Below the pieces are notes generated by a model. That model made no database searches, was not told the DNA's origin, and worked only from the letters and a program-made list of their open reading frames with translations. The translations under genes and the position numbers were made by a program. This document shows, piece by piece, positions 9,811-48,427 of a stretch of 64,000 nt of DNA (the stretch's first letter is position 1; every line of letters begins with the position of its first letter). This DNA comes from Microthrixaceae bacterium (GTDB lineage Bacteria; Actinomycetota; Acidimicrobiia; Acidimicrobiales; Acidimicrobilacustridaceae), in contig CANFQA010000004.1 of assembly GCA_947449015.1 (NCBI GenBank), positions 37,027 to 101,026 of the forward strand, given 5' to 3'.

Positions 9811-9844
9811 GGTTCCTCCTGGTATCGAACCTCTCCATCTTGGC

Positions 9845-9854
9845 GCGTCGACGC
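9845..9854. promoter_or_regulatory. 10 bp palindrome between divergent genes
   Basis: GCGTCGACGC is a perfect palindrome midway between the ligase start (9810) and the dehydrogenase start (9893). It may be a shared operator. Confidence 0.3.
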
Positions 9855-9892
9855 TGCCCCGTCGCACCCGAACCCCATGAAAGGATGAAGGC

Positions 9893-30983: not shown

Positions 30984-32972
30984 ATGACGACGTCGGTCGT
31001 CTCCAGCGATCAAGTATCGGCGAACTCGGCTACTACCGGCCGGTTCCGCATGCCCCATCTCCCCGCCCTCGATGGGCTTCGTGGTCTCGCCGTCATCGGC
31101 GTGCTCTTGTTCCACTCCGGCTTCGACTGGGCCAAGGGCGGCTACCTCGGGGTCTCGACCTTTTTCACGCTGTCTGGATTCCTGATCACAAATCTGCTGG
31201 TGCGTGAATGGGACTCACACGGCGCCATTCGTCTCGGTGGATTCTGGACACGTCGGTTCCGCAGATTGCTGCCCGCAGCGATCGTGACGATTCTTGCGAC
31301 CGGATTGGTGTTCTGGCGCCTCGGTACGCCCGAACAGTTACACAACCTCAGGCTCGACATGATCGGAGCACTTGGGTACGTCGCCAACTGGCGCTTCTAC
31401 TTCGCGGGCACAAGTTACGGATCGCTGTTTGCTGCGCCGAGCCCACTGCAGCACTTCTGGTCCCTCGCCATTGAAGAGCAGTTCTACCTGTTCTTCCCCC
31501 CAATTGTGATCGTTCTCATGCGGATCGGTGGCCGTCGAATCCTGAGTTTCGCTGTAGGACTCGCAACCATTGCATCAATCGCGCTTTCTATGTTTCTTCG
31601 CGCAAACACAGACCGCGTGTACTACGGCACCGACACCCGCGTCTCCGAACTGCTCATTGGGGTGCTGCTGGCGCTGTGGTGGTCCGCTCCCAGCCGCCGA
31701 CCAAGCCACACCGATGAACTCAACTCAGATATCTCCTCACGCTCGCTGATCGGCGACACCGTGGGCATTGCCGCGCTTGTCGCCATGTTCGGTGCGTGGT
31801 GGCGAGTGAGCGAGACCTCTCCGTTGCTGCCACGTGGCGGATTCCCCTTCTACGCGCTCTGCACCGCCGCCATCATCGCTGCGGGAACTCGCCGCGGTCT
31901 GGTCACCAGGATTCTTTCGTTCTCGGCTCTGCGATCGGCGGGCCTGATCTCCTATGGGCTCTATCTCTACCACTGGCCCGTCTTCCTCGTTCTGAGCGAA
32001 TCACGCATCGGATGGTCGCCGTGGCCCCTGTTCGCCCTTCGAATGTGCGTCACGATCACGCTTGCGTGCGTCTCGTATTTCCTGCTGGAGATGCCGATTC
32101 GCCGGGGGCGGCTCTTCACCACAGGTCGCTCGGCACTCACTGCGGGAATCAGCGCAGCACTGGTGGTCACTCTGCTGGCGGTGACCATCACGCTTTCCCC
32201 ACCCGCTCGAACCGCTTCGTTCGCTGATCTCAAGATCGGCGACACGTTCACCTATGGCAAAAGCCACGTTGAAGATCAGATACCAGCCGTTGGGGCGCCG
32301 AAATCCGTCTACATCCTCGGCGACTCCGGAATGGTCGATGAGGAAACGGCCCTCGAAGCTGCGTTTCATGCCGCCGGTGCCGGACATATCGGCCTAGGTG
32401 CAGGTCCTGGACTTGGACTGAGCCAGCCATTGGACTGGCGTGGCGATTGGACCAGGATGATCGACCAAGTGAATCCCGACCTCGTCATCGTCATGATGGG
32501 CGGATGGGACATGAAGTTCGTCAACGCCAAGGGCACGAAGGCCTACGAACAGTTGCTCGCCGAAGCAATCACGATTCTGACGCGGCGGGGAGCACGCATC
32601 ATCTGGTTGCCGATGCTTCCCGGAGGAAAGCTCACTGCCGGGAATGTGAACGACGTGACGATCAATGAGATCTTCACCACTCTCCCCAACGCCTTCCCCG
32701 GGTCGGTCTTCAATCCGACTATCGGGTCCTCACTTCTTCGTCCCGACGGCACCTATGGGATCTCCTATGTCGACGATTCTGGAGCCACCGTGCTTCTCAG
32801 AAAGCCCGATGGTTGGCACCTCTGCCAAGAGGGGGCAGCCCGTCTTGCCCAGGAAGTTCTCGACGCCGCCGTGAATCTCCATTTGAGCCCACCCGCGGCA
32901 CAACCATGGCGAAACGGGCCGTGGATCAGCGCTTCAAATTTCGATGATCCCCCGGGCGCCTGCCCTGCCTGA
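30984..32972 (+). CDS. OafA-type membrane acyltransferase with C-terminal SGNH-like domain
   Basis: Transfers an acyl (often acetyl) group to an envelope glycan. It has 662 residues: an acyltransferase-3 domain (about 25-400, about ten membrane segments) and a periplasmic SGNH-hydrolase-like domain (about 435-640). The acyltransferase motif LDGLRGLAVIGVLLFH holds the conserved His44, followed by FFTLSGFLITNLLV and FWTRRFRRLLPA. The SGNH domain shows YILGDSG (Ser near 446), GGWDM and DGWHLCQEG (Asp/His near 608). It diverges from the amidohydrolase gene. The AftD-like gene starts 38 bases after its stop, so a common transcript is likely. Confidence 0.93.
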   Translation: MTTSVVSSDQVSANSATTGRFRMPHLPALDGLRGLAVIGVLLFHSGFDWAKGGYLGVSTFFTLSGFLITNLLVREWDSHGAIRLGGFWTRRFRRLLPAAIVTILATGLVFWRLGTPEQLHNLRLDMIGALGYVANWRFYFAGTSYGSLFAAPSPLQHFWSLAIEEQFYLFFPPIVIVLMRIGGRRILSFAVGLATIASIALSMFLRANTDRVYYGTDTRVSELLIGVLLALWWSAPSRRPSHTDELNSDISSRSLIGDTVGIAALVAMFGAWWRVSETSPLLPRGGFPFYALCTAAIIAAGTRRGLVTRILSFSALRSAGLISYGLYLYHWPVFLVLSESRIGWSPWPLFALRMCVTITLACVSYFLLEMPIRRGRLFTTGRSALTAGISAALVVTLLAVTITLSPPARTASFADLKIGDTFTYGKSHVEDQIPAVGAPKSVYILGDSGMVDEETALEAAFHAAGAGHIGLGAGPGLGLSQPLDWRGDWTRMIDQVNPDLVIVMMGGWDMKFVNAKGTKAYEQLLAEAITILTRRGARIIWLPMLPGGKLTAGNVNDVTINEIFTTLPNAFPGSVFNPTIGSSLLRPDGTYGISYVDDSGATVLLRKPDGWHLCQEGAARLAQEVLDAAVNLHLSPPAAQPWRNGPWISASNFDDPPGACPA

Positions 32973-32991
32973 TCACATGTTCCCGCACCGG

Positions 32992-32997
32992 TAGGGT
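32992..32997 (+). promoter_or_regulatory. Possible -10 box upstream of aftD-like gene
   Basis: TAGGGT ends 13 bases before ATG 33011, so a transcript would have only a very short leader. The preceding acyltransferase gene ends at 32972, so this may be an internal promoter. Confidence 0.35.
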
Positions 32998-33010
32998 CTG
33001 CTCGCCCATC

Positions 33011-36000
33011 ATGACCACGACAGCCGAATCCGGATCCAGCGCCAACCCCACCAACTCACCGGAATTCTCCGGAAGGGACATGCGCGTCCTCGCTTGGATC
33101 GGTCGCTGCTGGCTCGGACTCACGCTTGCATTTGTTGCCTATGTGCCGCTCCTGTTGTCATCGCCCGGCAAGATTTCGGCCGACACCAAGGCCTACCTCT
33201 ATCTCGATCCCGGCAAGCTGCTGGACCGCGCATGGCTCATGTGGAACACCCATGTTGATGCCGGCACCGTGGTTCACCAGAACATCGGCTACCTGTTCCC
33301 GCTTGGCCCGTATTACTGGCTGATGCACGCGTTGGGAATGCCGACGTGGATCGCGGAGAGGCTTTGGTTTGGCTCGATGCTGTTCGCCGCCGGATACGGC
33401 GCAGTATGGATGCTGCGCCGTCTCGGCGTCCGCGGTGGCGGCGTTGCCGTGGGCGGCTTCGTCTACATGCTCAGCCCCTACATCCTCGCTTACTTCGGAC
33501 GAACCTCGGTCATCCTGCAGCCCTGGTGTGCGCTGCCTTGGTTGATCGGCCTGATGATGATTGCGCTGCGCGAACGCGGCTGGCGGGCACCTGTACTCAT
33601 CGCGCTCATCATCACGGTGATGTCGGGCACCAATGCCAGCTCGGTGATCTTCGTTCTGGCGGCACCCGCGCTCCTTGTTCCGTTCATGATCTGGGTGACC
33701 CACGAAGTACGAGTTCGCGAGGCCGTTGGAACGCTGGTGCGCATCACAGTCGCCACAATCCCGGCCCAGCTGTGGTGGGTTGCTGGCCTTTACGTTCAAG
33801 GGGCCTACGGGCTGCCGATCCTGCAACTCACCGAGACAGTGCAGACCGTTGCCCAAACCTCCACAGCCCCAGAACTGCTTCGCGGACTCGGGTACTGGTA
33901 CTTCTACGGTCGCGATGGCTTGTCGCAATGGACCCAATCCAGCACGCTTTACACACAGAACCCAGCGATGCTGGTAATCGGATTCATCCTGCCAACCCTC
34001 GGCCTCGTTGCCGCGATGCTCACTCGGTGGCGCTATCGGGCGTACTTCTTGGTGCTGGTGGTTGTGGGTCTTCTCGCCGGACTCGGCACCTACCCGTATG
34101 ACAATCCAGCCCCGTTCGGTGCGCTGGTCAAGGCAAGCACCAGCAGCGCTGCTGGCCTCGCTCTGCGCAACTCATCGCGTGCGCTACCTCTGCTTGTTCT
34201 CGGTCTCGCTGCACTCCTAGCCACCGCGATCGAACCTGCAGCTGCTGCCATTCGTTTGCGAGTGAGCCCAACACGTCGCCGCTATGTCGCGCCAAGTATT
34301 GCGACGGGGTTGATCCTTCTTGCCGTGCTGGCTCTCCCTGCGCTGTGGACTGGCCAACTCATTCAGAAAGACCTCCAATTCCCAGATCCATTGCCCTCGT
34401 ATTGGACCGATGCGGCAACAGCTATCGACTCGACCACTGACGGATCAAGGGTTCTCGAACTTCCTGGTTCGGACTTCTATGCCTACCGATGGGGACAGAC
34501 CCAGGATCCGATCACCCCTGGGATCATCAACCGGCCTTGGGTAGGGCGCGAACTCACGGCGTACGGCTCGCCGCCAAGCGTCAACCTCATCCGGGCGCTT
34601 GATGTCCCGATCCAAGAGAGCGTTTTCGAGCCCGGTTCCGTGGCACCAATTGCGCAACTGTTCGGCGCCTCCGACGTGCTGTTGCGCATGGACACCCAGT
34701 ATGAGCGCTATCACGCCCCTCGCCCGGCGGATCTGTGGTCCGAGTTCGGCAGCGCGTCAGGACTTCCCGCGTTAGGACTGGCAGCACCGCGCACATTCGG
34801 CCACCCGACCCCGTTCGTGCCTGATCAGCGGCAGCCCACTGTCGACGAGTACGAACTGGCACGTCCCACCAACGTCTCGCTCAACCCACCACTTGCGCTG
34901 TACCCGGTGTCCGATGCCCGCTCGATGATCCGCGCTGAACCCACCACGGGATCACTTCTGGTCTGGGGAGACAGTTCTGGTCTCGTGAATGCCGCCGGCG
35001 CCGGAATGCTTTCGACCAAAGGCGCCATTCTCTACGCAGCAACCCTTGACTCACACCCCGGCATCGTCTCCCCCACACGATCGACGACTCCGTCGCTGCT
35101 CATCACTGATACCAATCGCCGGCAGGGTTCCCGATGGGGTACGACACGCGAAAACAGTGGAGCCACCGAAGCGGCGGGATCCACTCCGCTGATCGTTGAC
35201 CCACGAGACACCCGTCTCGACATGTTCCCCGGATCTTCCGAGGCCTATCAAACTGTCGCCGAATACGGACCAGATGTCGCCAATGTTCGTGCAACCCGCT
35301 ACGGGGTCGACGGTGCGTATTCCGTCGGAGCGAGGCCCATCAACGCGATCGACGGTGACCCGCGCACCAAGTGGACAGTCGGCGACTCCCGCGAAGTCAT
35401 TGGTGATCGCCTCGTGGTCGACTACCGACATCCAGTTACTGCTAACCACATTGACGTCACCCAGCTGCAGGGAAATCGCTTCATCACCTCTCTTTCGGTA
35501 CTGCTCGATGGTCGGGTCGCCACCACGGTGCACCTTGACGACTCGTCGTTCGTCACCCCAGGTCAGCGGATCGACCTTGGCGGCGAGCACACCTTCACCT
35601 CGCTCGAGTTGAGAATCGACGACGCAAACGTGAAGCATCTCGTGTCATTCTCCGGCGTTTCTGATGTTGGATTTCGCGATGTCATCGTCCCCGGCGTCAC
35701 TGCAAGTGAGTGGATACGAGTCCCCTCAGCTGGTCTTGCGCAGTTCGGGGCCTCGACCAGTCCAATCTCGTATCTGTTCACCCGACTTCGAGCGAACCCT
35801 CTTGAGGGATACCGGCAGGACCCTGAGCTTCATCTCGCTCGACTTTTCACTACGCCGCGGGCCTCCGGATTTCGAATCCGCACGACCGCCCGAGTCTCAG
35901 GGAATGCGTCCTCACAACTGATCGACGCCCTGATCGGTCGACCAGGCACCGCCCAGGGCTATGCCTCAGTCGATGGCGACCTCTATCTCTATGGCGACCT

Positions 36001-37435
36001 GAGCGCGCGTCCGTCTTCGGCAAATGACGGGGATCTGGCGACAGCGTGGGTCACACCATTCGGTCCGCAGATCGGCAGCGGCTTCACCATCAACAATCCC
36101 CGACCGACCACCATCGATCACCTTCAACTCAGCGTCATCGCCGATGGCCAGCATTCCGTGCCAACTGCTCTCACCCTTACCGCCGATGATGGCTCCGAAC
36201 ATCAGGTCAATATCCCTGCCATTGGCGATCTGGCGACCGCCGGTTCGGTGAGCACCGTGACAGTGCCCGTTAACGCATTCACTACCACGAGCCTGCGAGT
36301 TGCGATCGCCGATGAGCGCTACGTCAACACCAAAGATCCATTTACTGCTCTGCCCCACGCGCTTCCGATTGCCATTGCCGAGTTGGGCGTTCCGAACATC
36401 GTCGGACCGGTTCCGGCCGAGTTACCCGAGACTTGCCACAGCGGAGTCATCAACCTCGACGGAACTGATCTCCCGGTTCGGCTCTCTGGATCCACTGCCG
36501 CAGCACTCGACCGACAAGCAATTGACGCACAGTCCTGCTCCGCTCCCACCGCCGACCTCGGCGCCGGTGACCACGCCCTCAGTACCACCAGTGGTCTCGA
36601 CACCGGCATCGACATCGACCAGATCTCTTTGTCGTCGCTGATCCCGGGAACTGATCTGGTTCAGACTGGCGGTGCCGACCCCGCTGCGTTCGCTGCATGC
36701 CCGAGCATCACTAGCGACCCCACCGGACGCCTCTCCTATCGGGTCACAAGCGCCAACGGCACGTCGCCGTACTGGCTCGTGCTTGGCCAGTCCCTGTCGA
36801 AGGGTTGGACCGCAAAGGTTCATGGTGGTGCGTCACTCGGCGAGCCCACACTGATCGACGGATTCGCCAATGGTTGGCTAATTGACCCAAGCGTGGTCGG
36901 CACCGACATCACCATCGATCTCGTGTGGGCGCCGCAGCAAACCGTCAATCTCGCCCTGCTCATCTCAGCGCTGTGGCTTGGCCTGCTCATCATCGCCGCA
37001 GTGGTTTTTGCTCTTCGCGCATACCGAAGTCGCTCCCCGCTCAGTGGAGCCTTCGCTGTGCCTGCGCCAACAGGCACTGACCTCGCCGTCTTCACTGGCG
37101 CGACGCTCCCCGCTCGTGCAATCGCCGTGCTGACCAGTGGTCTCCTCGCAGGGTTCGTCGGCGGCGCTGCTGTTGGCCTCTGCGTCACCGCGATCGCCGT
37201 GATCGCAGCCATCCGCCCGAAGGGGCGTCTGATTCTCATCGCTGCGCCGATCGTGGCAATGTCCGGCGTGGTTTTCCTCTACGTCGCACTCCAGATGAAA
37301 CGACGAATCCCGGTCGGGGTTGAGTGGGTCTCAGGATTCCTGATCGCTCACGAGCTTACGTTGATCGCGGTGTTCTGCGTTGTCGCTGAAAGCCTGTTGC
37401 GCTTCGCTGCGCGGAAGCGCCCAAAAGCGGCATAG
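33011..37435 (+). CDS. aftD: AftD-like alpha-(1->3)-arabinofuranosyltransferase (DUF3367) with discoidin-like domains
   Basis: Very large membrane glycosyltransferase of 1474 residues, near the length of mycobacterial AftD (about 1400). The N-terminal GT-C domain (about 25-460) has SPGKISADTKAYLYLDPG (about 51-68), with the acidic first-loop residue, then GYLFPLGPYYWLMH, both close to AftD. A long extracytoplasmic part follows, with two F5/8 type C-like segments, around residue 773 (INAIDGDPRTKW) and 998 (SSANDGDLATAW). The C-terminus has about four membrane segments (1313 onward). It probably adds arabinofuranose or a related sugar to envelope polysaccharide or lipoglycan. The last 88 bases overlap the opposite-strand glycosyltransferase gene. 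The symbol is by homology; the substrate here is unproven. Confidence 0.88.
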   Translation: MTTTAESGSSANPTNSPEFSGRDMRVLAWIGRCWLGLTLAFVAYVPLLLSSPGKISADTKAYLYLDPGKLLDRAWLMWNTHVDAGTVVHQNIGYLFPLGPYYWLMHALGMPTWIAERLWFGSMLFAAGYGAVWMLRRLGVRGGGVAVGGFVYMLSPYILAYFGRTSVILQPWCALPWLIGLMMIALRERGWRAPVLIALIITVMSGTNASSVIFVLAAPALLVPFMIWVTHEVRVREAVGTLVRITVATIPAQLWWVAGLYVQGAYGLPILQLTETVQTVAQTSTAPELLRGLGYWYFYGRDGLSQWTQSSTLYTQNPAMLVIGFILPTLGLVAAMLTRWRYRAYFLVLVVVGLLAGLGTYPYDNPAPFGALVKASTSSAAGLALRNSSRALPLLVLGLAALLATAIEPAAAAIRLRVSPTRRRYVAPSIATGLILLAVLALPALWTGQLIQKDLQFPDPLPSYWTDAATAIDSTTDGSRVLELPGSDFYAYRWGQTQDPITPGIINRPWVGRELTAYGSPPSVNLIRALDVPIQESVFEPGSVAPIAQLFGASDVLLRMDTQYERYHAPRPADLWSEFGSASGLPALGLAAPRTFGHPTPFVPDQRQPTVDEYELARPTNVSLNPPLALYPVSDARSMIRAEPTTGSLLVWGDSSGLVNAAGAGMLSTKGAILYAATLDSHPGIVSPTRSTTPSLLITDTNRRQGSRWGTTRENSGATEAAGSTPLIVDPRDTRLDMFPGSSEAYQTVAEYGPDVANVRATRYGVDGAYSVGARPINAIDGDPRTKWTVGDSREVIGDRLVVDYRHPVTANHIDVTQLQGNRFITSLSVLLDGRVATTVHLDDSSFVTPGQRIDLGGEHTFTSLELRIDDANVKHLVSFSGVSDVGFRDVIVPGVTASEWIRVPSAGLAQFGASTSPISYLFTRLRANPLEGYRQDPELHLARLFTTPRASGFRIRTTARVSGNASSQLIDALIGRPGTAQGYASVDGDLYLYGDLSARPSSANDGDLATAWVTPFGPQIGSGFTINNPRPTTIDHLQLSVIADGQHSVPTALTLTADDGSEHQVNIPAIGDLATAGSVSTVTVPVNAFTTTSLRVAIADERYVNTKDPFTALPHALPIAIAELGVPNIVGPVPAELPETCHSGVINLDGTDLPVRLSGSTAAALDRQAIDAQSCSAPTADLGAGDHALSTTSGLDTGIDIDQISLSSLIPGTDLVQTGGADPAAFAACPSITSDPTGRLSYRVTSANGTSPYWLVLGQSLSKGWTAKVHGGASLGEPTLIDGFANGWLIDPSVVGTDITIDLVWAPQQTVNLALLISALWLGLLIIAAVVFALRAYRSRSPLSGAFAVPAPTGTDLAVFTGATLPARAIAVLTSGLLAGFVGGAAVGLCVTAIAVIAAIRPKGRLILIAAPIVAMSGVVFLYVALQMKRRIPVGVEWVSGFLIAHELTLIAVFCVVAESLLRFAARKRPKAA

Positions 37436-38769
37436 ATCGCGAGAGCGGCGAGCCATAGCAGTGCCGGTTCACAGGTCACTCGATACCGGTTGTTGCCGAA
37501 ACCAAGCGCAGCGACGATAGCGACAAGCAGCGGCCAAAGCGCCACCACGAAGAGATCAAGCCGACGTCGTTTGGCGATGATTGCCCCGACGATTGCTGCA
37601 CTCGCTATGACGTAGTACTCAACAAGTGAGAACTCACTGGCGCGCAGGCTTCGACCCTCAACGACGACGTCGTATTTGGCAGTCTGAATCGGACCAAACA
37701 GATTGAACATCCGCAGCACTCTCACCGGAACTGCCACGGTGACCAGGCGCATGGAATGCGCTTTCGCATAACTGATGGCTTGATCGCGGCGCAGCACGTC
37801 CCGAACTGACTCATCCGGAATTGCCTCAGACGAGGATGCGGGGACGACCCCACCGCAGAAGAGTTCCCAGTAGCCGAGCTTGTCGCCGAAATAGGTTGCG
37901 TCACAGTTGGTCTGGGCCAGTGTCGTTCCCGTTTGACTAAGGGTCATGGGCTTTTCGAAAACCGTCATGTTCCGGAGAACCCACGGGGCCAGAACCGCTC
38001 CCGAAATCACCGCCACGACAAGCGTGTCGAGAACCAGACGTCGCCATGGCGCGCGGCGAACAAGAAAAGCACCAAGCAACACAAATGGTGCGTACATGAT
38101 GAGTTCCGGTCGAAGGAGTCCCCCGATACCGGTCAGAACACCGAGAAGCGCGGCCAGTCGCCAGGACGGGGATCGCCACCATCGCACCGCCACCAGCGTG
38201 GCAATTGGTACGAAGACAACCACGAGACTCTCGCTCATCAACGAGGAATCGTTCAGAACCAGAAACCCATAGACAGCGCCGAGTCCGGCAGCGAGAAGTC
38301 CCACTTGGTCGCCATACAGCTTGCGTCCGACCAGACCAATGAGCCCGACACCAAGAACCCCGAGCAATGTGCCCAGCAGTCGTTGCTCGTTCGAAGTCCC
38401 GAGCCCCACCAATTTCGCGCCAGCGAGGATGATCGGCCACAGAGGCGGATGAGACATCGTTGGCTGTTCGATCCCGGGAGGTACCTCGACGGTGATCGGA
38501 ATCCCAAAATGCTCGAACTCGACGCGTTCCGTTTGATCGGGATACCCCTCGAGATATCGGAACGGGTCGATATAACCGTGACCGTCGGCGAGAAGATTTG
38601 CGCTCTCATGGTAAAAGCGGGCGTCACCGGTTGGTGCGTGATCCCATTGCGTCATCGCAAGATTCACAACTCGCACGCCGAGCGCGACGCTCATGATCAC
38701 AACAAGAATGATCCAGAACCGCCGAGCCGACATCTGGGTGCCCGAGGGTGACAGCTGTGACGAGGTCAT
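37348..38769 (-). CDS. GT39-like (ArnT/PMT-type) membrane glycosyltransferase
   Basis: Polyprenyl-phosphate-sugar-dependent glycosyltransferase of 473 residues with about ten membrane segments. The acidic first-loop motif is APTGDARFYHESANLLADG (about residues 45-63), followed by YIDPFRYLEG and SHPPLWPIILAGAKLVG, the HPP motif of PMT-like enzymes. A periplasmic loop with CDATYFGDKLGYWELFCGG contains two Cys that may pair. It is paralogous to the 39753-41108 protein, which has CDHTYYGDEQGDHIGGWYLYC at the matching place. TAACCT (38778-38783) ends 8 bases before ATG 38769. It overlaps the 3' end of the aftD-like gene by 88 bases. Confidence 0.88.
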   Translation of the reverse strand: MTSSQLSPSGTQMSARRFWIILVVIMSVALGVRVVNLAMTQWDHAPTGDARFYHESANLLADGHGYIDPFRYLEGYPDQTERVEFEHFGIPITVEVPPGIEQPTMSHPPLWPIILAGAKLVGLGTSNEQRLLGTLLGVLGVGLIGLVGRKLYGDQVGLLAAGLGAVYGFLVLNDSSLMSESLVVVFVPIATLVAVRWWRSPSWRLAALLGVLTGIGGLLRPELIMYAPFVLLGAFLVRRAPWRRLVLDTLVVAVISGAVLAPWVLRNMTVFEKPMTLSQTGTTLAQTNCDATYFGDKLGYWELFCGGVVPASSSEAIPDESVRDVLRRDQAISYAKAHSMRLVTVAVPVRVLRMFNLFGPIQTAKYDVVVEGRSLRASEFSLVEYYVIASAAIVGAIIAKRRRLDLFVVALWPLLVAIVAALGFGNNRYRVTCEPALLWLAALAIYAAFGRFRAAKRNRLSATTQNTAINVSS

Positions 38770-38777
38770 CGGATCGC

Positions 38778-38783
38778 AGGTTA
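38778..38783 (-). promoter_or_regulatory. Possible -10 box of GT39-like gene
   Basis: TAACCT on the minus strand ends 8 bases before ATG 38769, in the 54-base gap after the GNAT gene. Confidence 0.3.
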
Positions 38784-38823
38784 GGACGAACCGTGACCCG
38801 AGATCATGATTCCGCCCACGAGG

Positions 38824-39756: not shown

Positions 39757-41108
39757 GCCGGGGCCGTTCGAGATCGTGACATTGCGCCCCAGATCGCATC
39801 GAAACTGATCGCTGCGAACATCACGACGGTGATCTCAGCGGCAGTTCGATATCGCAGATTCCCGAATGCGGTGGCCGCGGTGAACGTAACCAGCGCCGCC
39901 CACAGGAGTAACACCAGTACTGGCTCGCGCCGACGCCACTGAATCACGATTCCGGCAAACACGAACGGCATGAGAAACACGTACTGCCAAAAACCGATCC
40001 ACGAGGGCAGAGCCGGACGCCGTTCGACGATTTCGGTGCGCATCTGATCAATCGGCTGGTAGACGCTCCACATGCGACCGACCCGCGCCGGTACAACCAC
40101 TGTGACGAGACGACCGACATGGGAGGAGATGTACTCCATGGCCTGCTTGCGCACGACAACATCACGCTGCGACTCATCGAGCAGTTCGCCATTCGGACCA
40201 TACGGTTGGGTTCGACTGCCGCAATAGAGATACCAGCCACCGATGTGGTCGCCTTGTTCATCGCCGTAGTAGGTGTGATCGCAATTTGCCTGCACCAACA
40301 CGGTCCCCGCCCCGTCGGAAAGCGTCACGCGGTTCTTCATCACAAGGTTGTTGCGGATCACCCAGGGGGCAAGGGCGGCAATGCAAACCACACCCATCAC
40401 CGCATAAATCCGCGCCCGATCCATCCACGGGAGTCGAACTTTCAGCAGGGCCACAGCCCCGATGATCGGCATATAGAGAAGCAACTCCGCACGCGAAAGC
40501 GCGGCGAGAGCACCGGCAAGCGCGAACCACACACCATTTCGCAGCGTGGGCGCTCTCCAGAACTTGACTCCGAAGAGCGTCACCAAAAACACCATGACGA
40601 GCGCCGCGCATTCGGACATCAGCACGATGTCGTTGATCCAGATGTTGGCGTAGACCGCTGTCAGGAACGCGGCAATGAGGCCAAGCCGCTCGCTGCGCAA
40701 CTCTCGGCCGAGAAGTCCAGCGAGAACGATCGATGCCAAACCAAGCAGAACTGACGCCAGTTTGAGCGAAAGCGCGGAGCGCATGCCCAACTTTGCGAAC
40801 GCGGCAAGGTAGAGCACATAGACCGGTGGGTGGCCGGCGGTGGGCTCGATGTGGCCGATTGGAATGGTGACTGTCTTCGTCTCACCGTTGGCGAGCGTGA
40901 TCGTCTCCTCGCTGCCATAGAGATAGCGGAACGGGTCGATGAACCCCTTGCCATCAGCGACCAGACCGGCAGCCTTGCTGTAGTAGATCGCGTCGCCACC
41001 AAGTGGCGTCGACCGTTCGGCGACCATGAAACCCACACGGATCCCGAGTCCCAGAAGCGAGATTGCGAACAGCGCAAGGGCGAATCGGGATGGACGCCGG
41101 AGACTCAT
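39753..41108 (-). CDS. GT39-like membrane glycosyltransferase (paralogue)
   Basis: Second GT39-like enzyme, 451 residues and about ten membrane segments. First-loop motif LGGDAIYYSKAAGLVADGKG (about residues 36-55), then FIDPFRYLYG and GHPPVYVLYLAAFAKLG. The Cys pair in the loop near residue 270 matches the other paralogue. The shared unusual insertion FRYLxG-N6-to-14-ET(I/V) between the first-loop motif and the HPP motif shows recent common ancestry. It overlaps the polysaccharide deacetylase gene by 4 bases and the GNAT gene by 4 bases, so it is the middle of a coupled operon. It probably adds a sugar to an envelope glycan or glycolipid. Confidence 0.88.
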   Translation of the reverse strand: MSLRRPSRFALALFAISLLGLGIRVGFMVAERSTPLGGDAIYYSKAAGLVADGKGFIDPFRYLYGSEETITLANGETKTVTIPIGHIEPTAGHPPVYVLYLAAFAKLGMRSALSLKLASVLLGLASIVLAGLLGRELRSERLGLIAAFLTAVYANIWINDIVLMSECAALVMVFLVTLFGVKFWRAPTLRNGVWFALAGALAALSRAELLLYMPIIGAVALLKVRLPWMDRARIYAVMGVVCIAALAPWVIRNNLVMKNRVTLSDGAGTVLVQANCDHTYYGDEQGDHIGGWYLYCGSRTQPYGPNGELLDESQRDVVVRKQAMEYISSHVGRLVTVVVPARVGRMWSVYQPIDQMRTEIVERRPALPSWIGFWQYVFLMPFVFAGIVIQWRRREPVLVLLLWAALVTFTAATAFGNLRYRTAAEITVVMFAAISFDAIWGAMSRSRTAPA

Positions 41109-41983
41109 GCATCAGCCTTGCGGCGCAGTCGTCCCTGGAGGGGAACATGACGACTCGAAGAGCCTTCAGGATCAAACACCGGAAGGTCGCTGAGGCCTGC
41201 GACAACCTCGCGCAATGGTGGTCCGCTGGCCGCGCGCAGGGACTGCTCGACTCGAGCGAGCATCCCACCACGGTTGATCCAGCCAATACGACTCACGAGC
41301 CAACCACCATGTTCGTAGACGTAGAACGGCTCATCGGGGTCGAACTCCCAAGGGTGGCAATAGGTCCACAACACCGAGGAGGGGTCTGCAGTTCGCATGC
41401 CTCGACGTCGAACCAGCGAGGGAAGCACTCGCATGTAGGCACCGCCGAGGTACGGGATGGTGACGCCCATGAATCGCACCACGGGACATGGAATCTCCAC
41501 GATCCCCTGCGGCCAACGGAACGGGGTCGTGGGCGTACCGGGCCAGCCGTACATCAAGGTGGCCACCGGCAGGATGCTCGATGAGTAGGTGAACCCGACC
41601 TCTGCGAGCACATCAACGGCCCAACGGGTCTCAGGAACAATCGAGAACTGGGGTGCCCGGAACCCGCTGATCTCCTGACCGCTGAGGTCTTCGAGCATCT
41701 CCTTGGCTCGGATGGTTTGTTCACTGAAACGCGGTTGGCCCAACAGATCGATCGGAATGTGCTGAAAGCCATGGACCGCAATCTCATGTCCCAGTTCAGT
41801 CATACGCCGAAGAAGTTGTGGCTCTTGCGCAGCGTCTTCGGCAACACAGAAAATGGTGCCGCGGATATCGAGTTCAGCGAGGCGATCGAGAATGCGCGAA
41901 GTGGCGTACTCAATCCGTGATTCTTGGGTCGGCGAGGTGCGGAGATCCTCGAAATCGAGTGTGAACGTCACCGGGGGAACCAT
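41105..41983 (-). CDS. Polysaccharide deacetylase (NodB-homology, DUF3473-like)
   Basis: Carbohydrate esterase family 4-type enzyme of 292 residues, removing N- or O-acetyl groups from a glycan. The N-terminus has the Asp motif FTLDFEDLRTSP (about residues 7-18), GTIFCVAEDAA, then the metal motif EIAVHGFQHIPIDLL (about 84-98), with His residues. RAPQFSIVPETRWAVDVLAE matches the RxPxF motif near 128. A C-terminal WTYCHPWEFDPDEP resembles the DUF3473 extension found with exopolysaccharide and XrtA-type systems. TAGACT (41991-41996) ends 7 bases before ATG 41983. It is coupled to the GT39-like gene by a 4-base overlap. Confidence 0.9.
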   Translation of the reverse strand: MVPPVTFTLDFEDLRTSPTQESRIEYATSRILDRLAELDIRGTIFCVAEDAAQEPQLLRRMTELGHEIAVHGFQHIPIDLLGQPRFSEQTIRAKEMLEDLSGQEISGFRAPQFSIVPETRWAVDVLAEVGFTYSSSILPVATLMYGWPGTPTTPFRWPQGIVEIPCPVVRFMGVTIPYLGGAYMRVLPSLVRRRGMRTADPSSVLWTYCHPWEFDPDEPFYVYEHGGWLVSRIGWINRGGMLARVEQSLRAASGPPLREVVAGLSDLPVFDPEGSSSRHVPLQGRLRRKADA

Positions 41984-41990
41984 CGTGGAA

Positions 41991-41996
41991 AGTCTA
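41991..41996 (-). promoter_or_regulatory. Predicted -10 box of polysaccharide deacetylase operon
   Basis: TAGACT on the minus strand ends 7 bases before ATG 41983. Confidence 0.45.
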
Positions 41997-42037
41997 GATG
42001 AGGCCCGCAGCCGCCCCTTGACTACTACGGCGCTGAA

Positions 42038-43972
42038 TTACCGAGCGGGATTCTGCGCGATGGTGAGAATTTCATCGTTCAGCCACGTGCTCCAAAGCTC
42101 GGCGGCACCAGCTTCATCGAGATGACTTCCGTCGGGACGCATCTTGAGATTGTCAGGCTCAGATGCCATGTGGCCGGCATAGTCAACGATGCGCATCCAC
42201 GGACGCGTTGCTGCCACCGACGTGATCATCCCGGTGTACTGCTCGAACCGGGGGTTGGGACCCTGGCCGATCTTTGGCGGAAGTGTCAGCCAGGCAACCT
42301 GTGTGGCGCCTGCAGCGTGAAGGGCATCGGCGGCACCAGCGATCTCAGTCACCAGCCAATCGTCATAGACCGCATCGCCGATGGTGCGAAAGGATTGACC
42401 GAGACCCGGAACCTGGCGACCCGAGGCGTCCCAATTGCCGGTGAGGACAACCGCCACATCAACTCCTCCGGAGGCGGTCACTGCCCCAGACCAATTGGCT
42501 GACCAATCACAGAAGTCGAAGAAGGGCATTGAAGGTCGCTGGGGGTCATCGCCACCACCGGATTCGCCGCGCACGAGGCCACCGCGGCCGAGCGGACACC
42601 AAACCCGCGACCAACCACCCATGTCCCGCAGACGCGGGTCACCGGCGCCAACATCAGAGGCCAACATGAGCGCCGTTGAATCACCGAAGGTCTGAACAGT
42701 GACCGGATGCTCGGGCGTGCCGATCGGCGCGGATGCATCAATAGGCGCAGCGAGGCTCGCGGCATTCGCGCGCTGCTCGAATCGATGTTGCGCCGATGCG
42801 AAATCGATTTCGGAGGCGGGAGCCCCCCGAGTGGTTCCGATCAAACATCCGATAAGGACCACCGCAGTCAGCAGCACTGCCCATGGCGCGAACGCTCGGA
42901 GCGTGATCTTGCGAACTCGGATTGGCTCCTCAAAGAAGCGCAATGAGAGCGGAGCGACAGTGAATGAGATGGCGAGAACAACCCAAGGCTGCATCCAGGT
43001 TGGCATCGAACTGTGAAGGAGCGCGATGTGCACCGGCCAATGAATCAGGTAGACGCCGTAGGACACCGAACCAACCCAGACCAGTGGGCGAATCGACAAC
43101 GTTGCGAACATTGCCGGTGACCAAATTCCCGCAGCAATCACAAGCGCCGCAAGAACGGCAAGTCCGGTGAGTCCGCCTCGGTAATAGGCCTCGGTACCAA
43201 GTGATGAAAACACCGAAAGCCATACAAGCGAACCAAGGGCAAGGAATCCGATCAACCCGACAACACGTCCGGCAAGATCATGACGGGGGCTGGTGTCGCG
43301 TCCAGCAACGAGGACGGCAAGTAGAGAGCCGATGAAGAATTCTGCGCATCGCGTGAACGTCGAGTAGTAGACGACGGTGGCGTCTCCGCCTGCTGCGAGG
43401 GTGCACAGGAACGACCCACAGATGAGCAGCACAAATGCTGCGAGCAGCAGTTTGGGCCGACGCCGGAGCCACCACACCACAACCGGCACCACGAGATACA
43501 CCTGCTCCTCGATGCCAAGTGACCAGAAATGGGCCACGGGAGATGCTTCGTGGGCTCCATAGGTCGTTCCGGTCAGAAGGAACCGCCAGTTCGCCACCTC
43601 GAAGAACGCCGAGCCGACATCAACGGCGATCGAGTGCGTCATCCATGCCATGGCCAGCCACATCACCGTGATCAGAGCTAAGACAACGGCAGACGCCGGC
43701 CACAAACGACGGAACCTTCGGGAGAAGAACCCGCGCAGGTTGACTGTTGAATGTCGAGCGACCTCACCAAGGAGCCCTCGCGTGATGACGAAACCGGAGA
43801 GCGCAAAAAACACTGGGAGGCCCACGAGTCCCCCGGGAAGAAACCTTGGCCAGAGGTGGAACAGCAGCACTGGTACCAGTGCAAGACCACGTAGTCCGTC
43901 GAGTCCGCGCAGCCGAGTGCCACTGGAACCAGTTTCGGATCCCGTTACGACACTTCGCTCCCCGATGGCCAC
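42038..43972 (-). CDS. OafA-type membrane acyltransferase with C-terminal SGNH-like domain
   Basis: Second acyltransferase-3 protein, 644 residues. The motifs are LDGLRGLALVPVLLFHLW, VFFALSGFVITRGLL and FFSRRFRRLWPA; the membrane domain ends near residue 390. The SGNH-like domain has VQTFGDSTALM (about 426) and DGSHLDEAGAAELW (about 613). GTG 43972 is chosen because TACATT on the minus strand ends 7 bases upstream; TTG 44017 and GTG 43975 are alternatives. It is 71 bases from the divergent third acyltransferase gene, and 54 bases ahead of the polysaccharide deacetylase gene on the same strand. Confidence 0.92.
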   Translation of the reverse strand: MAIGERSVVTGSETGSSGTRLRGLDGLRGLALVPVLLFHLWPRFLPGGLVGLPVFFALSGFVITRGLLGEVARHSTVNLRGFFSRRFRRLWPASAVVLALITVMWLAMAWMTHSIAVDVGSAFFEVANWRFLLTGTTYGAHEASPVAHFWSLGIEEQVYLVVPVVVWWLRRRPKLLLAAFVLLICGSFLCTLAAGGDATVVYYSTFTRCAEFFIGSLLAVLVAGRDTSPRHDLAGRVVGLIGFLALGSLVWLSVFSSLGTEAYYRGGLTGLAVLAALVIAAGIWSPAMFATLSIRPLVWVGSVSYGVYLIHWPVHIALLHSSMPTWMQPWVVLAISFTVAPLSLRFFEEPIRVRKITLRAFAPWAVLLTAVVLIGCLIGTTRGAPASEIDFASAQHRFEQRANAASLAAPIDASAPIGTPEHPVTVQTFGDSTALMLASDVGAGDPRLRDMGGWSRVWCPLGRGGLVRGESGGGDDPQRPSMPFFDFCDWSANWSGAVTASGGVDVAVVLTGNWDASGRQVPGLGQSFRTIGDAVYDDWLVTEIAGAADALHAAGATQVAWLTLPPKIGQGPNPRFEQYTGMITSVAATRPWMRIVDYAGHMASEPDNLKMRPDGSHLDEAGAAELWSTWLNDEILTIAQNPAR

Positions 43973-43979
43973 CACCGAA

Positions 43980-43985
43980 AATGTA
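43980..43985 (-). promoter_or_regulatory. Predicted -10 box of second acyltransferase
   Basis: TACATT on the minus strand ends 7 bases before GTG 43972. Confidence 0.4.
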
Positions 43986-44031
43986 CCCGCCCACTGGCCG
44001 GCCCCGACTGCACCCAATCAAACCTCGCTGC

Positions 44032-44037
44032 TAGGTT
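44032..44037 (+). promoter_or_regulatory. Predicted -10 box of third acyltransferase
   Basis: TAGGTT ends 6 bases before GTG 44044. Confidence 0.5.
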
Positions 44038-44043
44038 CGATGA

Positions 44044-46200
44044 GTGGAAACGAGTGCCAACGAGGCGTCGGAGGTAGACAGCGACCTCAGCGACGAAGGG
44101 CAATTTCAGGATTCTCATACCCTTCGACCTCGATCTCGTTCTTTCCATCATCTCCCGGTTCTCGATGGTCTACGTGGCTTGGCTGTCGCAGCCGTTGTTC
44201 TCTTCCACTTCGCCCCTGACATATTTCCGGGAGGATTCCTCGGAGTCGACGTCTTCTTTGTTCTGAGCGGTTTCCTGCTCACTTCCCTGATACTCGTCGA
44301 GCATCACAACTCATCTGGCCTCTCGGTGCGCGGTTTCTGGGAGCGCCGAATCCGCCGGCTCCTGCCTGCAGCGCTCACAACCATCACCGTGAGCGTTGCC
44401 CTCGCGTTCATTCTCGAGCCGGCCTACACCCGAAACACGCTCCGCGGAGAGGCCGTCGCCGCAGTCGCCTACATGTCGAACTGGTGGTCCATTGCGAGGG
44501 GCAACAGCTACGCCTCGACCTTCGGGCCCCAGTCACCAGTCGCTCACTTCTGGTCTCTGGCGGTTGAGGAACAGTTCTACTTCCTGTTCCCGCTTGCCAT
44601 CGTCGGAGTCGCAGCGCTTCTCCGAGTGATCCGTCGACGCAATTGGCCCTTCGCACAGCATCAAAATCTTGCGATCGGACTCCTCATCATCTCCATTGCG
44701 GGAGCGGTTGCTTCCGCACTGGCAATGATCGCAATCCATACGCCCGGCGGCGATCCCTCTCGTGAGTACCTCGGCACCGACACCCGGGTGCAGACGATCC
44801 TCGTTGGTGTCGGCCTGGCGTGCCTGTGGTACCTCATTCCGCCCTTGCGAAGCGCATCGCCGAGTCGACCTGCCTCCATTGCCGCCTCGGTTTTGGTGGT
44901 GGTCTTGCTCGGCGCAGTGCTTGCCGCCAATTTCCATTCCGATTGGCTGTACCGAGGCGGCTTCACCGCCGTTGCACTCGCCACTGGCTGTCTCATCTGG
45001 ACGCTCGCGCGCCACCAAGTGGGACCGGGCCACCGATTCCTCACCGCCCGCCCGATGCGAATTCTTGGCGAGGTTTCCTACGGGCTCTACCTCTGGCATT
45101 GGCCTGTCATGGTGTTCCTCACCCCACAGCGAACCGGCATCAATGGATTTGCGCTTTTTGCCCTTCGACTCCTGCTCAGCGCCGCCGCCACCGCCATATC
45201 GTTCTTCCTCATCGAGAAACCGTTCCGCCGACCGAGAGCGGTGAAGACCAACACAGAATCAGAGCTGCCGACCCCACGTTCAACGCGAAGCCTCCTGCTC
45301 GCATGGGGATCAGCCTCGTCAGTTGCGGTTCTCCTTGTTGTACTCATGACAATCGGTCCGCGCCTCGGGGGAACAACCTCGACCGCCGAACCTCCGCCCA
45401 TCGCGACGACGCAAACCACGCTGCAACCCGGAATTCTTCCGGCCTCTGCCCCCTATTCAACGCTCTGGATCGGCGACTCGGTGATGTGGACGCTAGGCGG
45501 CGGTGGCCACATTGTGTTCCCTCAGCCGACCTCGTTCACCTCACCGTTCGATCCGAACCAACTCGTGATCTGGAACCGCGCGGTGTACCCCTGCGAGATC
45601 CTGCGCTATCCCTCGAAGTTCAACGGAGTCATGCGGGCACACAACAGCAACTGTGACAACAATGATTGGGCCGACGCAGCCGCCAAACTGCGGCCACAGA
45701 TCGTTGTGTTCAGTGCCGTTGTGAGCGATACCTACGATCGCTATGTCAACGGTCGACTCATTGCTTTTGGTACGCCCGAGTTCGACCAGATGTACCTCGA
45801 TGCGCTTGAGCGAACCATGACGCCGCTCGTTGCCGATCAACCCCAAGTGGTTCTGCTCGATCAGGCGCTGCCCGCGTGCATCTTCGAACCAAATGCCCGC
45901 CCGTCGGAAAACTGGCGAGTCCTTCACATGGGCGAGCTCTATCGGCGCTATGCCTCCAGCCATGCCCACACAAGTGTTGTGGATCTCAAACCAATCGTGT
46001 GCCCGGAATCTCCATGTTCCAATCAGACCCCATCAGGCGAACAGATTCGCGATGACGGCTTGCACTTCACAACCGCCGGCATCAATTACCTCGCGCCTGA
46101 ACTGGCCGCAGCAATCATCTCCGCAGCACGGTCCACCGGTATCGCACCGGTCGCGCCTCCAACCGCAGCGGATCCGACAAGAGCGCCGAGTTCGCCGTAA
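44044..46200 (+). CDS. OafA-type membrane acyltransferase with C-terminal SGNH-like domain
   Basis: Third acyltransferase-3 protein, 718 residues. Motifs are LDGLRGLAVAAVVLFHF (about 40-56), VDVFFVLSGFLLTSLIL and FWERRIRRLLPA. The SGNH-like domain has LWIGDSVMW (about 475-483) and DDGLHFTTAGINYL (about 670-683). The linker between the two domains is Pro/Thr-rich. A cysteine-rich stretch (CEILRYP, CDNN, CIFEP, CPESPC) in the SGNH domain is not seen in the other copies and may form disulfides. The start is GTG 44044 (leaderless pattern). The next acyltransferase gene follows after 145 bases on the same strand. Confidence 0.92.
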   Translation: METSANEASEVDSDLSDEGQFQDSHTLRPRSRSFHHLPVLDGLRGLAVAAVVLFHFAPDIFPGGFLGVDVFFVLSGFLLTSLILVEHHNSSGLSVRGFWERRIRRLLPAALTTITVSVALAFILEPAYTRNTLRGEAVAAVAYMSNWWSIARGNSYASTFGPQSPVAHFWSLAVEEQFYFLFPLAIVGVAALLRVIRRRNWPFAQHQNLAIGLLIISIAGAVASALAMIAIHTPGGDPSREYLGTDTRVQTILVGVGLACLWYLIPPLRSASPSRPASIAASVLVVVLLGAVLAANFHSDWLYRGGFTAVALATGCLIWTLARHQVGPGHRFLTARPMRILGEVSYGLYLWHWPVMVFLTPQRTGINGFALFALRLLLSAAATAISFFLIEKPFRRPRAVKTNTESELPTPRSTRSLLLAWGSASSVAVLLVVLMTIGPRLGGTTSTAEPPPIATTQTTLQPGILPASAPYSTLWIGDSVMWTLGGGGHIVFPQPTSFTSPFDPNQLVIWNRAVYPCEILRYPSKFNGVMRAHNSNCDNNDWADAAAKLRPQIVVFSAVVSDTYDRYVNGRLIAFGTPEFDQMYLDALERTMTPLVADQPQVVLLDQALPACIFEPNARPSENWRVLHMGELYRRYASSHAHTSVVDLKPIVCPESPCSNQTPSGEQIRDDGLHFTTAGINYLAPELAAAIISAARSTGIAPVAPPTAADPTRAPSSP

Positions 46201-46214
46201 GCATCAGCCCAGAG

Positions 46215-46274
46215 CGTCGCTGGCGACGGTAAATCGCCGCATTGACGCACCCCAACCGGGCCATATGCCGGCCC
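46215..46274. repeat. Two hairpins between acyltransferase genes
   Basis: CGTCGC-TG-GCGACG (46215-46228) and GGGCC-N7-GGCCC (46258-46274) lie in the 145-base gap. Neither is followed by a T-run, so they may attenuate rather than terminate. Confidence 0.3.
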
Positions 46275-46345
46275 TGCCATGACAGAATGAAAATCGTGGT
46301 TGGTCTTGGCCGCCGTGAGAGCTGATCGACCGGGAAGGGGGTTCG

Positions 46346-48427
46346 ATGACAACGACGCTAGACGCAGTCGATGACAGCACCGAACCCGGTTCACCGACAA
46401 CCGCCGAGGATGAGTCCACCCGAGCCCGCCCGGGACGAGTCGCTCATATGCCCGTTCTCGACGGCTTACGGGGAGTGGCCGTCATCATTGTGATGCTGTA
46501 CCACTTCGCCCCAAACCTCGTGCCGGGAGGGTTCCTTGGAGTCGACGTCTTTTTCGTTATTTCAAGTTTCCTCATCGTCACGATCCTGCTCAATGAGCAT
46601 GACCGCACTGACAGGCTGGATGTGGGGAGTTATGCCTCACGTCGGGTTCGCCGTCTCCTCCCCGCCCTGATCGCCACATTTATCGTCACCTCGTTCGTCA
46701 CGGCATTCATCCTTGACGCTTCCCGGATCCCCAAGTGGACCGGAGGCATCACCGCGGCAATGAGCTACGTGGCGAACTGGCGCGAGATCTTCGCTGGCAC
46801 GAACTACTTCGATGCCAGTCAATACTCAAACCCTCAGCCATTCCGTCACGTGTGGTCATTCGCAATTGAGGAGCAGTTCTATCTCTTCGCACCGTTCGCC
46901 ATCATCATCTGCCTCAGGTGGCTTTCGAAACGCTGGCTCACCATTTTGTCGGTGGGCGGTGCAATCATCTCGGCCATTTGGATGTCAGTGGTGTTCGACC
47001 CGAACAACCCGCAGACCATCTCACGTGCCTATTACGGCACCGACACGCGGGCGTTTGCACTCCTGCTCGGTATCGCCATGGCCGTCGTGTGCAATGAGCA
47101 CGGTCCGGCTCGAACGAAGACCGGGCGTTGGATCACCCAGCTCCTGGGCCTCATCTCTACCGGAGTACTTGCCTATCTCGTTCTCACGGTGAGCGAGAAG
47201 ACCGGGTGGATGTTTGAGTACGGAGGTTTCTTCCTCGTCGCCGTACTTGCAGTCTCTATGACCAGAGCAGTCACCGCGCCAACCGGTTGGATGCACGCCG
47301 TCTACAGGAACCGATTCCTGCGGTGGGCCGGACGTCTCTGCTTCGGGCTGTATCTCTACCACTGGCTGGTCCTCATCACGATCGACCGCAATCTCGCCGC
47401 CGACAAGCCCGGACTCAACAATGCTCGCGACATGGTCGTTGGGGTCGGCCTCACGTTCCTGCTCGCGTGGGCGAGTTACCGATGGATTGAGAAACCATTC
47501 ATCAAGGGTCGCTGGCCAGGATGGAAACTTGTCGCTGGGCTCAGCGCCGGCATCATCATCTCTCTGACACTGCTGCTCTATGCCAACACGGTTCGAGTAT
47601 CCAAAGTCACCGCCCTCAACGGCGTTCCAGCGCAGGGAACCACGCCGATCGCGTTGGGGAAGAACAGCCCGTGTGTTGCTCCGATCGGAAGCGATCCGGT
47701 GCGAATCCTCATCGTCGGCGATTCGGCCATGGTGCAGCTCGGTGCCGCACTTCGTGATTGGTGCGCCAGCAACCCCGGCCAGATCCTGGTGATGTCAGAC
47801 GCAGAGCTCGGATGCGGAACCACCCGCGGCGGCGAGCATCGCTACGAGGAAGGACCCGGGCCAGTGAGTCCCGTCTGCGACACCTGGGCCGAACCCACTG
47901 ACCCGCTTCTGGTCGCCGATCCCAACATCATCAGTTGGGTCACCTCAATCGATACCTACCATCCCGATGTCGTTCTCGCCTCCGGCAGCCCCTGGGACAC
48001 CATCGATCGCAAACTTCCCCAGATCGGCGACCAATGGGTTCGACCCGGCGATCCCGCCTACGACGCATACCTCCAGTCCGAGTACTCGCAGGAACTGTCC
48101 ATCCTCTCGGGTCATGGCGCCTCGATCGCATGGTTGGAAACCGCGCATATCAACAGACCAGGTCCGTTCAACGCTCCCGATCGCATTGATCGTCTCAATG
48201 AGATTGTGCTGCCCATGATCCAAGCGCTGCCTCGCAGCATGATCATCGACTATCCGTCCTACCTCGGCCCCACCGGCGGCGCGAAAGATGTCGCCACGCG
48301 AGACGACGGCGTACATATACGCGCCGACCATCTCCAGACAGTGGCCGACTGGCTTGCTCCGCAACTGATCGCGGCAAAGCAGATTGCTCAGCCTTCGTCG
48401 AGTTCTACCTCGCCATCAGGCGGCTGA
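46346..48427 (+). CDS. OafA-type membrane acyltransferase with C-terminal SGNH-like domain (variant motif)
   Basis: Fourth acyltransferase-3 protein, 693 residues. The motif LDGLRGVAVIIVMLYHF is intact, but the normally conserved FFVxSGFLIT reads FFVISSFLIVTILL (about residues 68-81), changing Gly to Ser and Thr to Val. YASRRVRRLLPA follows. The SGNH-like domain has ILIVGDSAMVQLG (about 455-467) and DDGVHIRADHLQ (about 653-664). A likely disulfide pair of Cys lies in NSPCVAP and ELGCGTTRGG. ATG 46346 has AAGGGGG upstream. It is the last of the envelope block on this strand. Confidence 0.9.
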   Translation: MTTTLDAVDDSTEPGSPTTAEDESTRARPGRVAHMPVLDGLRGVAVIIVMLYHFAPNLVPGGFLGVDVFFVISSFLIVTILLNEHDRTDRLDVGSYASRRVRRLLPALIATFIVTSFVTAFILDASRIPKWTGGITAAMSYVANWREIFAGTNYFDASQYSNPQPFRHVWSFAIEEQFYLFAPFAIIICLRWLSKRWLTILSVGGAIISAIWMSVVFDPNNPQTISRAYYGTDTRAFALLLGIAMAVVCNEHGPARTKTGRWITQLLGLISTGVLAYLVLTVSEKTGWMFEYGGFFLVAVLAVSMTRAVTAPTGWMHAVYRNRFLRWAGRLCFGLYLYHWLVLITIDRNLAADKPGLNNARDMVVGVGLTFLLAWASYRWIEKPFIKGRWPGWKLVAGLSAGIIISLTLLLYANTVRVSKVTALNGVPAQGTTPIALGKNSPCVAPIGSDPVRILIVGDSAMVQLGAALRDWCASNPGQILVMSDAELGCGTTRGGEHRYEEGPGPVSPVCDTWAEPTDPLLVADPNIISWVTSIDTYHPDVVLASGSPWDTIDRKLPQIGDQWVRPGDPAYDAYLQSEYSQELSILSGHGASIAWLETAHINRPGPFNAPDRIDRLNEIVLPMIQALPRSMIIDYPSYLGPTGGAKDVATRDDGVHIRADHLQTVADWLAPQLIAAKQIAQPSSSSTSPSGG

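Follow-up and report, generated by a model that had tools for sequence, protein, structure and literature searches.

An AftD and acyltransferase gene block in Acidimicrobiia that may extend and decorate an arabinan-type envelope glycan

Arabinan made from decaprenylphosphoryl-arabinose (DPA) tends to be treated as a trait of mycolic-acid bacteria. Its synthesis in mycobacteria and corynebacteria involves DprE1, DprE2, DPPR synthase, Emb and AftA to AftD. Here we describe a nine-gene block at positions 30984–48427 of a 64,000-nucleotide stretch (the window) of contig CANFQA010000004.1, assembly GCA_947449015.1, from a Microthrixaceae bacterium of the class Acidimicrobiia. The block combines an AftD-family protein with four acyltransferase-3 (AT3) proteins, AT3a to AT3d, two GT39-like glycosyltransferases, GT39a and GT39b, a GNAT-fold protein and a polysaccharide deacetylase. 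We put the chances at about even that the proteins encoded here lengthen and decorate an envelope glycan of arabinan type that is made from DPA. The host resembles the described pathway in its three DPA genes (DprE2, DPPR synthase and DprE1), a canonical AftD and the window AftD paralog; it differs in being a member of Acidimicrobiia, in lacking any detected Emb or AftA_N, and in that the UDP-galactopyranose mutase family (GLF) appears in only 3 of 21 genomes, its own included.

The remaining genes have counterparts in other pathways. In Nod-factor synthesis NodB deacylates and NodA then acylates, and in lipid A modification (ArnD/ArnT) ArnT transfers aminoarabinose; by analogy, the block would place a NodB-family deacylase beside an acyl-transferring GNAT fold and a GT-C protein with the ArnT fold. 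Decoration of arabinogalactan with galactosamine involves PpgS, Rv3632 and Rv3779, of which Rv3779 is described in PMC9671496 as moving galactosamine from polyprenyl phosphate to the glycan; the same text calls the deacetylation step of this mycobacterial pathway unidentified. The block is predicted to share with it deacetylation and a GT-C enzyme that draws an amino sugar from a polyprenyl carrier, but differs in that genes for a NodB-type deacetylase and a GNAT-fold protein stand together with those for its two GT39-like enzymes. SucT is presented in PMC10503756 as an AT3 acyltransferase of envelope polysaccharides. All four block enzymes carry an AT3 domain above cut-off and match the SucT model at 92–120 bits, far under its cut-off of 1275, and unlike SucT they form four genes in one block. 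Lastly, the best NCBIfam match of the block deacetylase, which also carries DUF3473, is the XrtA-type exopolysaccharide deacetylase TIGR03006, at 184.9 bits against an equivalog cut-off of 276.2; a sortase was found neither in the first-pass annotation nor in Pfam scans of the window's main open reading frames (ORFs), exosortases not having been sought genome-wide. The parts belong to known families, and we found no description of their combination in this host in open-licence PMC, where no paper joins Acidimicrobiia with AftD, or DprE1 with Acidimicrobi- words, and where arabinan, Acidimicrobi- and cell wall co-occur only under off-topic titles.

The predicted supply of a lipid-linked arabinose donor is well supported. 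In the host genome (2.38 Mb in 86 contigs, 96.9% complete), a single operon on contig C7 (locus L107) encodes DprE2, DPPR synthase and DprE1, scoring 270.3 bits against NF053786 (cut-off 250), 366.9 bits against NF008978 (cut-off 207) and 586.9 bits against NF053785 (cut-off 500), respectively. Across genomes we counted DprE1 by its equivalog model, taking matches above 140 bits only, and dropped ALO (PF04030) as a marker because, at the strong ALO matches that we checked, the DprE1 model stays under 75 bits. Among 61 genomes, 47 have both DprE1 and an AftD match, whatever its strength, and 6 have neither, with AftD alone in 4 and DprE1 alone in 4 (p = 0.0006); for DPPR synthase (above 165 bits) the corresponding counts are 48, 6, 3 and 4 (p = 0.0003). 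Physical linkage is seen in L074, titled Ilumatobacteraceae, where about 18 kb hold two window-type AftD genes, an AT3-SGNH gene (PF01757, 98.4 bits; SGNH, 40.1 bits), a GT39-like gene and all three DPA genes (DprE2 267.6, DprE1 552.6 and DPPR synthase 336.7 bits). The three also lie 7.5 kb from a window-type AftD in L195 of genome G042 (301.9, 554.2 and 338.0 bits), and DPPR synthase (217.2 bits) lies beside one in L196 of G049; these two loci were chosen because the linkage had already been seen, and among the other 51 loci DPA genes occur only in L074. The DPPR synthase match near AftD and DprE1 in G042 (C1:2302435–2303337) contains one TGA. The first-pass annotation had suggested a glycan of a kind other than arabinan, and the DPA genes, the canonical AftD on contig C10 described next and the linkage in L074 weaken that suggestion, which we regard as not supported; the search for arabinan genes that it proposed recovered DprE2, DPPR synthase and DprE1, with Emb and AftA not found.

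The window AftD matches GT-C_AftD (PF11847) at 288.8 bits (cut-off 26) and CBM_AftD at 29.4 bits (cut-off 27), which bears out its original assignment, and its residue D58 is invariant across 25 aligned rows. A second AftD of the host (contig C10; L108:9114–13205) scores 499 bits against PF11847 and aligns with the solved mycobacterial AftD at 375.1 bits over residues 103–1411, nearly its full length; judged by these matches, it is the more canonical copy. The two are about 25% identical. All listed AftD ORFs of at least 700 residues, which came from fetches with the window AftD as query or from the neighbourhoods studied, score higher to the window copy than to the C10 copy, and the window AftD is a separate paralog that is widespread in the class. 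On C10 (L108:8078–14191), a family-4-type glycosyltransferase gene is followed by AftD and then, with a 4-bp overlap, by a sulfotransferase-like gene (PF13469, 53.3 bits), hinting at a sulfated glycan. In G036 (C8:47354–51186), the AftD match is split into several pieces with in-frame TGA stops and therefore looks broken or misassembled. The sole GT87 gene found in the host genome also lies in the window, at 3879–5180, outside the gene list of the first-pass annotation. Its product is PimE-like by sequence search of the PDB (59.6 bits to 9dm5), yet the GT87 family also holds AftC, so it may serve either mannose or arabinose.

The likeliest alternative concerns the window AftD paralog. The window AftD may have left arabinose and may build another heteroglycan from a different polyprenyl-phosphate sugar, in which case the DPA genes would serve only the C10 AftD and the neighbouring genes would decorate a non-arabinan glycan, in line with the first-pass annotation. 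We consider this unlikely, though several observations favour it and at the same time weigh against the arabinan reading. The window AftD matches the solved mycobacterial AftD (6wbx) at 141.6 bits over residues 30–586 of 1474 only, against 375 bits for the C10 copy, and its donor or acceptor may therefore differ; the low identity between the two copies points the same way. G048, G054 and G059 have an AftD match without DprE1 and without DPPR synthase, and the G048 AftD (45% identical) stands with an AT3 gene and a GT39-like gene. Emb (PF04602) was not found in the 96.9% complete host genome, and its sole match across the 61 genomes covers 43 positions at 24.7 bits, in G048; AftA (AftA_N, PF12250) was found in 0 of 21 genomes, with a Corynebacterium glutamicum control matching. 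Other points count against the arabinan reading. GLF exceeds 236 bits in the host (L194; G000:C37:14216–14812) and in G011, reaches 113 bits in G003, and is found in none of the other 18 genomes searched. In the 24 genomes of other families, the association of DprE1 with AftD is not significant (10 with both, 6 with neither, 4 with AftD alone and 4 with DprE1 alone; p = 0.21), the counts for DPPR synthase being 11, 6, 3 and 4 (p = 0.09). Kinship among the genomes counted is a further weak point. The SucT model (NF058601) gives AT3a to AT3d 92.5, 92.4, 119.7 and 98.4 bits, and the literature searched, including passages of PMC6113628, gave no usable sugar data on Acidimicrobiia. Against a departure from arabinose stand a PF11847 score far above cut-off and the proximity of window-type AftD genes to the full DPA trio in L074 and L195 and to a DPPR synthase in L196. 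As neither Emb nor AftA was found, the system, if of arabinan type, would work with fewer transferases than the described one.

Conservation of the block in relatives, proposed as a check by the first-pass annotation, was observed in the genus and, in pieces, across the class. An AftD ortholog occurs in 18 of the 21 genus genomes, with only distant or fragmentary matches in G006, G013 and G020. GT39a lies downstream of AftD in 12 (the host, G001, G005, G008, G010, G011, G012, G014, G015, G017, G018 and G019), and the downstream cassette is accordingly present in 12 of the 15 informative genomes and absent from three: MaoC comes straight after AftD in G002 and G004, and in G003 it does so on a second contig (L084) of that assembly. 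For G007, G009 and G016 the contig breaks off within AftD. Eight of the 12 GT39a-bearing genomes show the GNAT, GT39b and deacetylase genes together, the contig ending earlier in the other four, and the order AT3a-AftD-GT39a-GNAT-GT39b-deacetylase is identical in the eight genomes, host included, that show the whole stretch. On the other side of AftD, AT3a occurs in 11 of the 12 cassette genomes; the twelfth, G001, has a contig that begins within AftD. G009 and G016 have AT3a as well, and G003, G004 and G007 lack it. Presence of AT3a and of the cassette agrees in all 13 genomes that show both sides of AftD, with 11 having both, 2 neither and 0 discordant (Fisher p = 0.013, kinship not removed). 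Among close relatives, the nine-gene block is mostly kept or lost jointly.

On a tree of AftD (25 rows, a quick IQ-TREE run with SH-aLRT support only; G003, G007, G009 and G016 as partial rows, and G033 represented by a contig that may be mis-binned), the cassette needs 2 changes and AT3a likewise 2. G002 and G007 nest beside the cassette-bearing G014 and G018 with 99–100% support, and for this reason their case is best read as a loss; it is the only firm one among the cassette changes, several deep forks being unsupported. DprE1 is kept in the cassette-free G002, G003 and G004 and in the AT3a-free G007. Since AftD and DprE1 persist in members that lack it, the cassette most likely serves for optional decoration rather than as backbone machinery. 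Four loci titled as a Bifidobacterium breve metagenome-assembled genome (L041, L047, L076 and L095) also encode relatives of the window AftD; two of them, L041 and L047, show the gene order of the genus; these titles are likely wrong. L041 also has an APH-type gene (8814–9899) upstream of AftD, and a like gene occurs in L088.

Beyond the genus, we sought the GNAT protein in 296 genomes of the class and obtained a match at E ≤ 0.001 in 61. Matches above 80 bits stand at 19 places, 3 of them in the genus, and the remaining 16 were examined with their surroundings. A deacetylase homolog shares the stretch in 14 of the 16, the two matches being at most 130 bp apart in 11; the loci without one are L167, where the GNAT gene starts at the contig edge, and L180, which has the weakest GNAT match. 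A GT39-like gene is present in 13 (in one at only 48 bits) and AftD in four (L170, L174, L175 and L177), which at a background of 1–2%, our own estimate, corresponds to P = 2e-5 to 2e-4. L187, in which two AftD genes flank a deacetylase-GNAT-GT39b run, was left out of this count as it had been fetched for its AftD. At 11 of the 53 loci outside the genus with AftD above 200 bits, an AT3 gene is no more than 6 kb away from it; with the background estimated at 4–6%, P = 7e-6 to 3e-4. In G033 (C118; L192), a genome of another genus, AT3a, AftD and GT39a are 51–59% like those of the window, a possible case of mis-binning or transfer. These data bear on a second alternative, that the deacetylase-GNAT-GT39 unit modifies another target, such as protein O-glycans or a lipid, and is only a neighbour of AftD. 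The excess of AftD in the GNAT stretches and the joint presence or absence of the unit and AT3a on opposite sides of AftD in the genus both make this improbable.

The deacetylase of this unit matches PF01522 at 59.9 bits (cut-off 23.1), as had been annotated, and DUF3473 at 85.6 bits (cut-off 29.6); it carries the motifs HGFQH71, FRAP108 and YCHPWE208, which we take to be catalytic, and no hydrophobic or membrane segment was seen in its sequence. The proposed pair of paralogous GT39-like enzymes is likewise upheld: GT39a and GT39b reach 40.6 and 35.2 bits against PMT_2 (PF13231; cut-off 26.1) and are 38% identical in alignment. A structure model of GT39b is nearest to Pmt and ArnT. For the GNAT protein, the fold is suggested by a structure model whose closest matches are the amine acylators Eis and N-myristoyltransferase, while its Pfam match (Acetyltransf_9, PF13527) stays at 21.5 bits, under the cut-off of 25. 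Sequence searches of the PDB with the GT39b and GNAT profiles gave no match.

Four fusions of AT3 to SGNH domains had been claimed, and the AT3 half of the claim stands in full: AT3a to AT3d score 86.3, 92.6, 95.1 and 86.4 bits against PF01757 (cut-off 31). SGNH-type Pfam matches exceed the cut-off only in AT3a (DUF459, 62.5 bits; cut-off 27.2) and AT3c (DUF459, 28.6 bits; SGNH itself, at 26.3, falls just under its cut-off of 27); at E ≤ 0.001 no such match is seen for AT3b or AT3d. Each protein nevertheless has one GDS and one DGxH motif in its C-terminal half (GDS446 and DGWH609 in AT3a, which also has LFH42 and RRFRRLLP90; GDS445 and DGSH629 in AT3b; GDS477 and DGLH671 in AT3c; GDS458 and DGVH654 in AT3d), and most pairs, AT3c and AT3d for example, align past the AT3 domain into this half. 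Codon scoring favours a start of AT3c at 44179, and a sequence search of the PDB with AT3a found no match. The host genome has nine PF01757 genes, four in the block with starts 15.4 kb apart and five as singles on five other contigs. If the nine were placed uniformly, finding four of them within 16 kb would have P = 0.00017, and the clustering of AT3 genes in the block is not background. AT3 genes are present in 57 of the 61 genomes, with a mean of 6.25 in 12 genus members with the cassette or its visible start and 2.5 in the four judged cassette-free, one of which, G007, was so judged by absence of AT3a alone. The first-pass annotation had tied its reading to linkage in relatives and to an acyltransferase density above that of the rest of the genome; as the block is conserved in the genus and in pieces across the class, and is acyltransferase-dense relative to the genome, neither of the refuting outcomes that it named occurred, and its interpretation overall is partly supported.

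All nine ORFs were confirmed in the positions first proposed (Table 1). AT3a and AftD lie in tandem on the plus strand, as do AT3c and AT3d further on, and GT39a, GNAT, GT39b, deacetylase and AT3b form a minus-strand run. By coordinates and sequence, 4-bp overlaps join the deacetylase to GT39b and GT39b to the GNAT gene, and GT39a and AftD overlap at their 3′ ends.

Table 1. Genes of the block, with window positions and strands
Gene	Position	Strand	Product
AT3a	30984..32972	+	AT3 with C-terminal SGNH (DUF459) domain, 662 aa ORF; 38 bp upstream of AftD
AftD, window type	33011..37435	+	AftD-family GT-C protein, 1474 aa
GT39a	37348..38769	-	PMT_2-type GT-C glycosyltransferase, 473 aa
GNAT-fold protein	38824..39756	-	310 aa
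GT39b	39753..41108	-	PMT_2-type GT-C glycosyltransferase, 451 aa
Deacetylase	41105..41983	-	NodB-type polysaccharide deacetylase with DUF3473, 292 aa
AT3b	42038..44017	-	AT3 with SGNH motifs, 659 aa ORF
AT3c	44044..46200	+	AT3 with SGNH domain, 718 aa ORF
AT3d	46346..48427	+	AT3 with SGNH motifs, 693 aa

G+C content is even, at 0.59–0.63, through the block and its flanks and so gives no sign of recent import; a horizontal island by composition was rejected on these grounds. A loose hot spot, in which envelope genes gather with no joint function, is a very improbable account of the block given the constant order from AT3a to the deacetylase in the eight genomes showing the whole stretch, the 4-bp overlaps and the even composition, even though the AT3 genes after the deacetylase vary by subclade (a second subclade has a different AT3 and a relative of AT3d, with no AT3b or AT3c ortholog seen) and in L044 GT39a and GNAT are separated by an unrelated HpaB-type hydroxylase gene (8346–9824), with a like gene in L088 (15805–17241) and the same gap in L046. 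Promoter-like sites numbered 1 against 4.0 expected and terminator-like sites 15 against 10.7; a search for tRNA genes, in which Rfam was not searched, found none. A neighbouring gene at window positions 24702–27098, which stays adjacent to the block across the genus, encodes an LPG_synthase_TM (MprF flippase-like) domain at residues 499–785, preceded by about 500 residues without a Pfam match.

Under the arabinan reading, we infer the following roles. The window AftD would use the lipid donor to add arabinofuranose on the outer side of the membrane. The deacetylase, with no visible export or membrane segment, would act in the cytosol to free the amine of an N-acetyl-hexosamine precursor, and the GNAT-fold protein may then attach another acyl group to that amine, in the order of NodB followed by NodA. 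GT39a and GT39b would move the amino sugar from polyprenyl phosphate onto the glycan, as ArnT does with aminoarabinose. Each AT3 domain would carry an acyl group across the membrane, where its SGNH domain could set it on the glycan. Both the decoration chemistry and the acceptor are put forward here as predictions. A wider proposal, possible though somewhat doubtful, is that Acidimicrobiia make D-arabinan without Emb or AftA, with AftD-family enzymes transferring arabinose, and that in this lineage it wears an optional coat of re-acylated amino sugar, prepared by the deacetylase and GNAT protein and placed by the GT39 enzymes, together with AT3-SGNH O-acyl groups, the whole being gained or lost as one cassette.

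For the galactosamine decoration pathway, in which PMC9671496 calls the deacetylation step unidentified, the deacetylase-GNAT-GT39 unit offers a concrete candidate for a step of that kind. Arabinan enzymes are drug targets, and a DPA donor trio with AftD but without Emb or AftA in Acidimicrobiia would provide a reduced system in which AftD could be studied without Emb. The presence of the donor trio and AftD in this class would also raise the question of where the pathway originated.

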